A DNA stretch of 47,369 bases, taken from the NCBI GenBank assembly GCA_030595185.1, contig JAUVDT010000006.1:1-47369 (forward strand). Direction: 5' to 3'. The notes under the pieces are model-generated. The model was not told the DNA's origin. It was given only the letters and a program-made list of their open reading frames with translations, and did not search any database. The position numbers were made by a program, and so were the translations under genes. Source of the DNA: Gammaproteobacteria bacterium (lineage in GTDB: Bacteria; Pseudomonadota; Gammaproteobacteria; SZUA-229). Positions 13,120-15,425 of the stretch are shown here, one piece after another (position 1 is the first letter of the stretch; every line of letters starts with the position of its first letter).

Positions 13120-13635
13120 ATGAGCCCAAAAGATATGAGTCACAAACTTGAAGTTGCCTATGAGCATATGCTTGAAGTAGCCAAAGAATTTGTTATGAAC
13201 ACCCGTGAGCACGGTGGTCCTATTATCAAAGAGGCTTTGAAAGAAGCTAGAGAGAAAGCATCTGATATTTCGGAGCTAACGACGGAAGAAATAGATAAAT
13301 TATCTACTTATATAGAAAAAGATCTGACAGAAGCAGCTGGTTTTATGCAACAGCAAGAAAGAGAGCTAGCTGACTGGTTAAAGCTGGATGTTTTATTAAT
13401 TGAGAAATATCTACTCGAGAAGTTTTCATCGCTAGCAGATCAAACCCGCATTGAGTTGGAACAGTGGTCAATTGATGCCGATGAAAATGGTGAATGGAGA
13501 ACAGGTGAAATTGTTAGCATGGGGGTCTTACGTTGTAAGTCTTGTGGCGAAGAATTGCACTTTGAAAAACCAGGGCATATACCGCCTTGCCCTAAATGTC
13601 ATGCGACAGCATTTAAACGCATACATAATGCGTAA
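13120..13635 (+). CDS. YbeL-like zinc-ribbon protein (DUF1451)
   Basis: 171-residue cytoplasmic protein of the DUF1451 family, function unknown. A long, charged helical N-terminal region (about 1-125) resembles E. coli YbeL, including the stretch around LADQTRIELEQW. A C-terminal zinc ribbon has two CxxC pairs: CKSCGEELHF and CPKCHATAFKR. The middle stretch WRTGEIVSMGVLRC is characteristic of the family. AGAGGT just before the ATG is a good ribosome binding site. The gene stands alone, followed by the leader-like region of the EamA transporter. Confidence 0.85.
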   Translation: MSPKDMSHKLEVAYEHMLEVAKEFVMNTREHGGPIIKEALKEAREKASDISELTTEEIDKLSTYIEKDLTEAAGFMQQQERELADWLKLDVLLIEKYLLEKFSSLADQTRIELEQWSIDADENGEWRTGEIVSMGVLRCKSCGEELHFEKPGHIPPCPKCHATAFKRIHNA

Positions 13636-13685
13636 TGACATTTTTAATACTTGCTTTTAAAAAAGTGGGGTGTTATTAATACCTC

Positions 13686-13778
13686 ATGAATATTTCTAAA
13701 TTATCTTTGTCGAAACAAGTGAAATTATGGCTGGTAAGTCTATGGTGGCTAAAACCTTGTTGCGGCAGAATAAAATAA
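13686..13778 (+). CDS. Possible Trp-containing leader peptide (30 aa)
   Basis: A short frame from ATG 13686 encodes 30 residues with three tryptophan codons: W15, then adjacent W20-W21 in LWLVSLWWLKPCCGRIK. It ends 26 bp before a strong terminator and 115 bp before the EamA transporter gene. The RNA could fold in three exclusive ways like an amino-acid attenuator (see the terminator entry). A possible promoter, TTGCTT-17 bp-TATTAA (13651-13679), would start transcription almost at the ATG; no Shine-Dalgarno is seen, so it could be leaderless. Chance cannot be excluded for so short a frame. Confidence 0.4.
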   Translation: MNISKLSLSKQVKLWLVSLWWLKPCCGRIK

Positions 13779-13804
13779 TTTAAAAAAATCAATATCATTA
13801 TTTT

Positions 13805-13834
13805 AAACAGGCCGCAAATCAGCGGCCTGTTTTA
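13805..13834 (+). terminator. Terminator or attenuator upstream of the EamA gene
   Basis: An 11-bp stem AAACAGGCCGC/GCGGCCTGTTT (13805-13815/13822-13832) with a 6-base loop ends in T residues. An alternative pairing exists: TTGCGGC at 13760-13766, in the last codons of the short ORF, is complementary to GCCGCAA at 13811-13817 in the 5' arm. CGAAACAAG (13711-13719) can in turn pair with CTTGTTGCG (13756-13764) with one mismatch. This gives the 1:2, 2:3, 3:4 layout of transcription attenuators. Otherwise it is simply the terminator of the upstream gene. Confidence 0.8.
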
Positions 13835-13893
13835 TTTCCTTTAAAGAAAAATAAACTAGTCAGATTTGCGGCTCTAAAATACAAGGAGTTGTA

Positions 13894-14823
13894 ATGGCGT
13901 TCATGACACAAAATTATTTACATGATAAGCGAGTATTGTTTGCATTTATGCTGACATTGTTAGGCGCTATTATGTTTTCTGCAAAAGGATTATTTATAAA
14001 GTTTGCTTATCAATATAATGTCGATACGGTCACTCTATTAGTGATACGTATGGGTATTTCAGTACCGGTATATTTGATGATTGGTTTTTATAGTGAACGA
14101 TTTCATCAACAGAGAATTAGTAAACAACAGCTATTATCGATAGCTTCTTTAGGCTGCATTGGTTATTACCTTGCCAGCTATCTTGATATGCAAGGTTTGC
14201 ATTATATTTCTGTTAGCTTAGAGCGGGCTGTCCTTTATATATATCCAACGTTTGTATTATTGTTGTCAGCACTTGTTTTTAAGCAACGAATAACGAGTAG
14301 GGATGTATGGACGATATTAATAGCCTATACCGGTCTTGTTCTTATTTTTATTGAAGGCATTGAGCATGGTACTAATGAAATATATTTAGGTGGAATATTA
14401 GTTGCTTTTAGTGCGCTAGCATTTGCTATTTTTATGGTGGGTAGTGATAAACACATAAAAATGGTTGGCTCAATTCGTTTTACGGCGTATGCCATGTCAG
14501 CCGCAGGAGGCTCTGTCTTTTTACATTATTTATTAAGTGATCGAGTTACTGTCTTTACTCAGCATCAACAAGTGTATTTCTGGGGCGGTATTTTAGCTGT
14601 TTTATCAACCATCATACCCAGTTTTTTAATGGCGTACGGTATGAAGGTATTAGGAGCTAAAAAAGTGTCGTTAATCGGTGTTGTTGGGCCTGTCTCGACG
14701 ATGTTACTTGGTGTCGCCTTTTTAGGAGATACCTTGAGTGTCATACAGAGTCTCGGGATTGCTATTGTTATATTTGCGGTAACGTCCATTGTTATTTTCA
14801 ATAAGGTAGATAAAGATAAATAA
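13894..14823 (+). CDS. EamA/DMT family transporter
   Basis: Inner-membrane drug/metabolite-superfamily permease of 309 residues with about ten hydrophobic segments in two EamA repeats (about 16-150 and 165-305). The second repeat shows the usual pattern SFLMAYGMKVLGAKKVSLIGVVGPVSTMLLG. Relatives export amino acids, nucleotides or other small metabolites; the substrate here cannot be read from sequence. AAGGAG with good spacing precedes the ATG. If the upstream Trp-rich leader is real, an aromatic amino acid is a candidate, as for the DMT member YddG, but attenuation would raise expression when Trp is scarce, which fits uptake better than export. Confidence 0.87.
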   Translation: MAFMTQNYLHDKRVLFAFMLTLLGAIMFSAKGLFIKFAYQYNVDTVTLLVIRMGISVPVYLMIGFYSERFHQQRISKQQLLSIASLGCIGYYLASYLDMQGLHYISVSLERAVLYIYPTFVLLLSALVFKQRITSRDVWTILIAYTGLVLIFIEGIEHGTNEIYLGGILVAFSALAFAIFMVGSDKHIKMVGSIRFTAYAMSAAGGSVFLHYLLSDRVTVFTQHQQVYFWGGILAVLSTIIPSFLMAYGMKVLGAKKVSLIGVVGPVSTMLLGVAFLGDTLSVIQSLGIAIVIFAVTSIVIFNKVDKDK

Positions 14824-14918
14824 TGAGAAAAGTTATTTGTCTTAATTATAATGTGCGGCCTTTTGGTACATACGTATCAAAATAATATTTGTTAAATAGT
14901 TAATCGTAGGAGATTTAC

Positions 14919-15022
14919 ATGGCGAAGTTTGTCCAGCTGGTTGGACTGACGGTGATAAAGGTATGACTGCAATGCCAGAAGGCGTAGCTGAGTACCTAAC
15001 AGAAGAAGTTGATAAACTATAA
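14919..15022 (+). pseudogene. Remnant of a 2-Cys peroxiredoxin (AhpC/Prx) gene
   Basis: Read from 14921, the sequence gives 33 residues beginning GEVCPAGWTDGDKGM and ending EYLTEEVDKL before TAA 15020-15022. That is the C-terminal end of typical 2-Cys peroxiredoxins, including the resolving-Cys motif EVCPAGW. A ribosome binding site (TAGGAG, 14907-14912) and an ATG (14919) sit directly in front but in another frame, which stops after 15 codons. TATAAT at 14847-14852 may be the old -10 box. The picture is a deletion that removed nearly the whole coding sequence and joined the start region to the last codons out of frame. Confidence 0.8.
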
Positions 15023-15044
15023 GCTAGTTTGCTTTATTTGTTAT

Positions 15045-15079
15045 AAAAAGCTTGTTCGTTAATTCGGGCAGGCTTTTTT
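15045..15079 (+). terminator. Terminator left behind the peroxiredoxin remnant
   Basis: AAAAAGCTTG (15045-15054) pairs with CAGGCTTTTT (15069-15078) through one G-U pair, 10 bp in all, followed by T residues. It lies 22 bp after the remnant's stop codon and is presumably the original gene's terminator. Confidence 0.8.
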
Positions 15080-15105
15080 ATTGCCTGGAATTAAATAATA
15101 ATAAA

Positions 15106-15425
15106 TGTCTCAAATCATCCTGAAGCGGCCATTAAAAACCAAGGTCAAAAAATTTCACCGCAGACGACTGCATGGATGCAGAAGGTAGAGTAACGCAGGA
15201 GCAGTTACCGAGGCGCAGAGGGCGCAGAGGAAAAACAAAGAAAAATATAACGGTAGTCTTTATTCTGAAACAGCCTATGCACATTACTTTCCCTAAATAA
15301 GTTATAGATATATAAAAGGTTTTCTCCGCGCCCTCTGCGTACCCAAAGCACTTCGCGGGGCAGGCCCTCTCCGTGGTGGGTTTTATCTTTTGATGTTTGT
15401 GGCCGCTCTGTACTAGTACCAGACA
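15106..15425. mobile_element. MITE-like element, copy 2 (about 320 bp), with inserts
   Basis: Inverted relative to copy 1 (7575-7823): its left part (TGTCTC, then CCTGAAGCGGCC) matches the right end of copy 1, and its right part (CTGTACTAGTACCAGACA) matches the left end. Shared internal blocks are TATATAAAAGGTTTTCTCCG and GTGGTGGGTTTT. It is longer because of two extra pieces: about 50 bp at 15161-15210 and about 34 bp near 15337-15370. Both arms are therefore disrupted. No ORF is present. Together with the peroxiredoxin remnant it fills the 628-bp gap between the EamA and MerB genes. Confidence 0.72.

Follow-up and report, generated by a model that had tools for sequence, protein, structure and literature searches.

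The window, that is, the whole stretch of 47,369 nucleotides of gammaproteobacterial DNA analysed here (contig JAUVDT010000006.1), carries a gene for a 309-aa transporter of the EamA/DMT family. Its product matches PF00892 (E 3.6e-29; 102 bits against a gathering cut-off of 28.2), in agreement with the family assignment made in an earlier sequence-only reading of this DNA. The same protein reaches 38.1 bits against the YddG equivalog model NF050091, below the cut-off of 300, and its relatives reach 35-44 bits; a PDB sequence search with the EamA protein returned no match. Between this gene and a DUF1451 gene on the same strand lies a leader region with the following features:

13120-13635, + strand: DUF1451 gene, upstream of the leader
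13651-13679, + strand: putative promoter, TTGCTT (13651-13656), 17 nt, TATTAA (13674-13679); a weak match
13686-13778, + strand: leader-peptide ORF of 30 codons, MNISKLSLSKQVKLWLVSLWWLKPCCGRIK and stop; read directly, leaderless-looking, with counterparts in homologues
13728-13730, 13743-13745 and 13746-13748, + strand: putative regulatory Trp codons, read directly
13776-13778, + strand: stop codon of the leader ORF
13706-13719, + strand: segment 1, partner of segment 2 when no ribosome obstructs it (computed fold)
13756-13769, + strand: segment 2 (core of the 2:3 pairing, 13760-13766), about 16 nt 3' of the Trp codon at 13743
13805-13820, + strand: segment 3, the 5' arm and loop of the terminator, which can pair with segments 2, 4 and 5
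13805-13832, + strand: 3:4 intrinsic terminator, AAACAGGCCGC-AAATCA-GCGGCCTGTTT and then TATTTCCTTT (fold energy, shuffles)
13862-13874, + strand: segment 5, partner of segment 3 (p 0.005; covaries in betaproteobacterial leaders)
13866-13894, + strand: possible 5:6 hairpin hiding the Shine-Dalgarno sequence AGGAG at 13884-13888 (computed fold)
13894-14823, + strand: EamA/DMT-family transporter gene, the regulated gene in the proposed model

Direct reading confirmed the 30-codon frame, with Trp codons at 13728, 13743 and 13746 exactly where they had been placed, and also bore out the remark that this frame lacks a clear ribosome-binding site. The apparent leaderlessness of the ORF would account for this: in nearly all loci the ATG comes 6-10 nt after a sigma-70 -10 element, which is weak in the window. 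In the window, the promoter matches the consensus at only 7 of 12 positions, and the -10 element ends 6 nt before the leader ATG. Among 57 leaders curated from EamA homologues, a promoter matching at 9 or more of 12 positions, with the -10 element ending 5-10 nt before the ATG, was found in 42, compared with 1.1% of shuffled sequences; the common form is sigma-70, TTGACA-N16-19-TATAGT-like. Since the -10 element is so near the leader ATG, the transcript should begin at this ATG or within a few bases of it, and the ORF is probably translated in a leaderless manner.

The leader stretch was predicted to fold more stably than 200 of 200 shuffled sequences (z -3.7). The strong terminator proposed earlier holds up well, with arms at 13805-13815 and 13822-13832 that gave -20.1 kcal/mol (z -6.6 versus shuffles). 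A pairing around the Trp codons, previously drawn between 13711-13719 and 13756-13764, falls within the computed 1:2 pairing of 13706-13719 with 13756-13769. The alternative 2:3 pairing joins TTGCGGC at 13760-13766 to GCCGCAA at 13811-13817, the same 7 bp as noted before, with a duplex energy of -13.1 versus -8.7 in shuffles (p 0.04). Segment 5, which had been mentioned as a source of further pairing, forms ten Watson-Crick pairs with segment 3 (GATTTGCGGC at 13863-13872 with GCCGCAAATC at 13811-13820), at -19.6 versus -7.3 in shuffles (p 0.005, the floor of the test), and proved to be a conserved part of the switch. The 5:6 hairpin in the window was calculated at -12.8 kcal/mol (z -2.2) and was not significant in the composition-controlled test (p 0.36).

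Homologues of the EamA protein were gathered by an alignment-based genome scan plus searches across the class and the phylum. The leader comparison covers homologues at 34-42% identity to the window protein, same-genus genomes holding 3' stubs only, and many of these homologues are preceded, between about -230 and -75 from the start codon, by an ORF 16-45 codons long, with Trp usually in the context (K/R)-L-W-L. When a fixed motif at a fixed position was counted and the expectation was taken from dinucleotide shuffles, the strict motif occurred in all 21 loci of f207, a family in another class of the phylum, neither gamma- nor betaproteobacterial (0.69 expected; a search of this family returns a nearly identical set of loci). 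It occurred in 21 of the 43 loci that the genome collection supplied from beta- and gammaproteobacteria and other groups outside Bacteroidota (1.66 expected) and in 14 of 29 other members of the window's class (0.86 expected). Bacteroidota homologues showed no enrichment, with 2 of 32 against 1.54 expected. Some motif matches, for example L005, L039 and L096, look like chance ORFs, consistent with the expected background, and four loci scored as misses (L022, L043, L062 and L070) do have a leader with one Trp that is not followed by Leu. The sequence-only reading had named retention of the terminator with loss of the short ORF and its Trp codons as the outcome that would speak against attenuation. 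The opposite was found: the ORF, Trp and the pairings are conserved, and it is the terminator that varies by lineage.

Several individual leaders deserve description on their own account. The f207 leader L148 has three consecutive Trp codons (ERWWWQ), closer to the textbook trpL, most of its relatives having one or two. Within Bacteroidota, L042 was considered as an attenuator on the strength of V-W-L-R plus a terminator; its sister L059 is without such an ORF, and the L042 ORF was therefore regarded as probably due to chance. L042 was kept among the 57 curated leaders, as 1 of 16 gamma-group rows, with neither pairing significant in it. In L058, from a Bacteroidales MAG, the interval between -153 and -25 relative to the EamA start contains a short single-Trp ORF (MLHSSALIWNKTVDCSGGTCMYT) followed by a strong terminator close to EamA, possibly an independent Bacteroidota attenuator.

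All 57 curated leaders have a Trp codon. Selection required one, and its presence alone is therefore not independent evidence; the independent evidence is spacing, position, promoter and covariation. Covarying stems were sought in the related leaders, as had been suggested, and were found for two of the pairings. In the f207 alignment, 2:3 is paired in 92% with five of eight pairs changed on both sides, versus at most 60% paired in slid controls, and RNAalifold recovered this helix unprompted. In the betaproteobacterial alignment, 3:5 is paired in 96% with four of eight pairs changed on both sides, versus at most 47% in slid controls. The 3:5 pairing also beat shuffles in 21 of 21 f207 leaders, 12 of 17 betaproteobacterial, 3 of 3 Methylobacter-type and 10 of 16 gammaproteobacterial leaders, the window included.

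The effect of ribosome position was examined by folding transcripts that end with segment 3 and so lack segment 4, with the ribosome placed either at the last Trp codon or at the stop. It had been proposed that a ribosome stalled at the Trp pair frees 13760-13766 and that one at the stop codon covers it; the computed 2:3 probability in the window was 0.99 in the former state and 0.01 in the latter, a difference that averaged 0.38 in shuffled segments (p 0.024). Over the 57 leaders the mean probability was 0.88 at the last Trp codon and 0.34 at the stop, giving a contrast of 0.54 versus 0.30 in shuffled sequences (p 5.5e-6); in L003 and L025, it is the first Trp codon, not the last, at which a stall is effective. 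At equilibrium, the window terminator has a probability of 0.95 in every ribosome state and beats 2:3, and hence any such switch must act kinetically, during transcription; because the terminator always wins at equilibrium, the calculation is informative solely for the RNA that ends before segment 4. When ribosome masks were applied, the accessibility of the ribosome-binding site at equilibrium changed in no consistent direction.

The spacing of these elements gives a further view of what the leader may sense. Of the 18 leaders whose 2:3 pairing was significant, 17 have a Trp codon 13-18 nt before the start of segment 2; in the window, this interval is 13 nt for the codon at 13746 and 16 nt for that at 13743. 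The distance from the stop to segment 2 in the same leaders runs from -38 to +5, with the stop two codons past the last Trp and segment 2 outside the ORF in some leaders and with the ORF running through segment 2 in others. Since the Trp-to-segment-2 distance is near constant and the stop distance is variable, the fixed point is the Trp codon and not the stop; a ribosome paused with its A site on this codon would reach almost to segment 2. Sequence and comparison document the leader ORF with its Trp codon, the distance from that codon to segment 2, and the three pairings 2:3, 3:4 and 3:5. We consider it probable that the leader is a ribosome-mediated Trp attenuator that controls the EamA transporter and turns it on at low Trp-tRNA.

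The regularities of the peptide itself could also be read in another way, in which an L-W-L nascent peptide of the TnaC kind stalls the ribosome on free Trp or another ligand and induces an exporter when the ligand is in excess. The first Trp codon is followed by Leu in 50 of the 57 curated leaders with several different Leu codons in use, and in-frame pN/pS summed over 14 pairs of leaders is 0.63, a modest, coding-like value below 1, so that the peptide sequence may matter; moreover, 31 of the 57 leaders have a single Trp codon only, and YddG, a known aromatic exporter, belongs to the same superfamily (PMC13170310). Arrest of this kind needs a fixed distance from Trp to stop, however, and the distances observed span 2 to about 13 codons, depending on the leader, the constant distance being that from the Trp codon to an RNA segment. 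The L-W-L codons also take part in the RNA pairings, which can explain part of their conservation. We therefore regard an arrest peptide as unlikely.

Less likely still, in our estimation, is that 13805-13832 is a plain terminator of the DUF1451 gene next to a chance ORF, with the EamA promoter downstream of it. The terminator does sit between this same-strand gene (13120-13635) and EamA, and terminators of upstream genes were found just before Bacteroidota homologues. Against this, EamA homologues with the leader sit behind quite different upstream genes and nevertheless keep the ORF, the Trp codon, the promoter and the 2:3 and 3:5 pairings, and the gap between the terminator and the start of EamA is just 61 nt, part of which is occupied by segment 5. 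Since leaderless ORFs are able to react to the overall translational state of the cell, the leader might instead report that translation is inhibited in general or initiates slowly, with no specificity for Trp. PMC12121999 describes an E. coli uORF that responds to drugs targeting the ribosome. Against this reading, a Trp codon stands at a set distance from segment 2, and the betaproteobacterial leaders inspected by eye at this position all had Trp (which was also the search criterion), so that general sensing is very improbable here.

The output of the putative attenuator appears to differ between lineages. The 3:4 pairing is an intrinsic terminator with a U-tract in the window, L003 and L025, and the tails of 3:4 in gammaproteobacterial and f207 leaders contain 45-51% T, compared with 26-31% in the leaders. 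In six scorable betaproteobacterial 3:4 hairpins, the tails contain 22% T and are not U-rich, and segment 5 masks the Shine-Dalgarno sequence beyond what shuffled segment 5 does in the betaproteobacterial group only. A general 5:6 masking hairpin was accordingly rejected, as significance was confined to this group. Output in betaproteobacteria appears to be translational, and the simplest reading of these sequences would be transcriptional attenuation in the window and translational control in betaproteobacteria, with one sensor.

For Trp attenuation, the following sequence of events is proposed. Transcription would start at or near the leader ATG, and the peptide ORF would be translated from the leaderless 5' end. 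With charged tRNA-Trp available, the ribosome would reach the stop at 13776-13778 and cover or close segment 2; with segment 2 blocked, the 3:4 terminator would form and the transporter would not be made. When charged tRNA-Trp is short, the ribosome is expected to halt with its A site on one of the Trp codons at 13743/13746 or on that at 13728, and segment 2, lying beyond the front edge of the ribosome, would capture segment 3 before segment 4 is made, so that no termination occurs. Segment 5 would later displace segment 2 from segment 3, probably keeping the ribosome-binding site of the transporter accessible. For the betaproteobacterial relatives, whose 3:4 lacks a U-tract, the ribosome-binding site is the probable point of action of the switch. 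The transporter may serve Trp uptake; its weak similarity to YddG, an exporter, would, if it means anything, sit uneasily with induction when Trp is short.

Attenuators of related design are well known. The trp operon attenuator (trpL, RF00513) has in common with the leader in the window a short Trp ORF, mutually exclusive 1:2, 2:3 and 3:4 pairings and termination as output, but here the target is an EamA transporter rather than biosynthesis, the ORF is leaderless-looking, there are usually one or two Trp codons in L-W-L, and there is an extra conserved segment 5. An Rfam search of the window and about 30 loci gave nothing at gathering score and chance-level matches at E <= 1; RF00513 (Trp_leader) had no gathering-score match in the window and none at E <= 1 in L001. 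In Sinorhizobium meliloti, the trpL/rnTrpL RNA starts with the leader ATG (PMC7298713), and the leader ORF thus lies at the 5' end of the transcript as we infer for the EamA leader, although the rhizobial system controls trpE(G), has consecutive Trp codons and belongs to another organism group. Leader-peptide attenuators whose output is sequestration of the ribosome-binding site have been described as a class (PMC9413887), into which the betaproteobacterial EamA leaders fit; what differs is that the EamA-leader architecture appears to be shared by terminator lineages and a lineage that masks the ribosome-binding site. Attenuators and T-boxes on amino acid transporters such as hisXYZ and trpX are reported from Gram-positive bacteria (PMC9413887, PMC9382623), in which uncharged tRNA or codon-specific stalling likewise controls a transporter, but through a T-box or His codons, in Firmicutes, and on ABC rather than DMT transporters. 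YddG resembles the EamA protein in its DMT/EamA superfamily and a weak profile match, and differs in being an aromatic amino acid exporter, whose direction is opposite to what the regulation suggests. Since leader-peptide attenuators and T-boxes on transporters, as well as the class that masks the ribosome-binding site, are known, the EamA leader is not a new kind of device. A Trp leader before an EamA/DMT gene was not found in the open-access full-text literature, a scope that leaves out most subscription journals, including earlier surveys of proteobacterial attenuators.

The history of the locus in its own lineage is less regular. Neighbourhoods of the EamA homologues contain no conserved partner gene and no trp genes; no close EamA homologue was found in the window's genus or most of its family, and single-protein scans of genome and viral contigs gave no EamA relative. 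In three same-genus genomes (L156-L158), short EamA 3' remnants lie behind DUF1451, as identified by a BLAST match in L156 and by eye in L157 and L158, and these stubs indicate that the gene was once present there and has since been lost. A peroxiredoxin-like ORF follows the stub in L156 and L158; in the window (14785-14824, 14918-15083), EamA is intact and the peroxiredoxin-like gene is reduced to a 3' remnant, a reciprocal loss. In the tree, the window protein lies on a long branch beside leader-less Bacteroidota homologues with weak support (0.69), outside the main leader-bearing clade. From the common anatomy, the window leader is likely to share descent with the other leaders; given this long-branch, weakly supported position, common descent is not proven.

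Two further observations were made near the locus and elsewhere in the same genome. At locus L154 of the window's own genome, a small ORF (MKLLTLQQGHFSFNERW and stop) with a single Trp as its last codon lies at about 1310-1365 before trpE; it looks leaderless, with TATAAA 6 nt before the ATG, and is possibly a related minimal Trp leader. An inverted intergenic element with arms of the GAGGCGCAGAG/CTCTGCG type occurs both downstream of EamA in the window (15185-15375) and upstream of trpE in L154 (about 1200-1290), and looks like a dispersed REP/MITE-like repeat.

A broader proposal, which we put forward tentatively and hold to be somewhat doubtful, is that these leaders constitute an undescribed RNA family in at least three classes of Proteobacteria, in which a leaderless Trp leader is combined with segment 5, and segment 3 would serve as antiterminator, terminator arm and releaser of the ribosome-binding site; the stand-alone EamA protein may then be an unrecognised importer of Trp or a Trp precursor. 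Many DMT/EamA transporters are without known cargo, and a codon-specific leader would tie the members of an entire clade to tryptophan on sequence evidence only, and so open their cargo to direct test. A switch that looks shared seems to have moved its output from termination to translation across lineages, and these leaders would be a widespread instance of leaderless leader peptides outside the rhizobial trpL.
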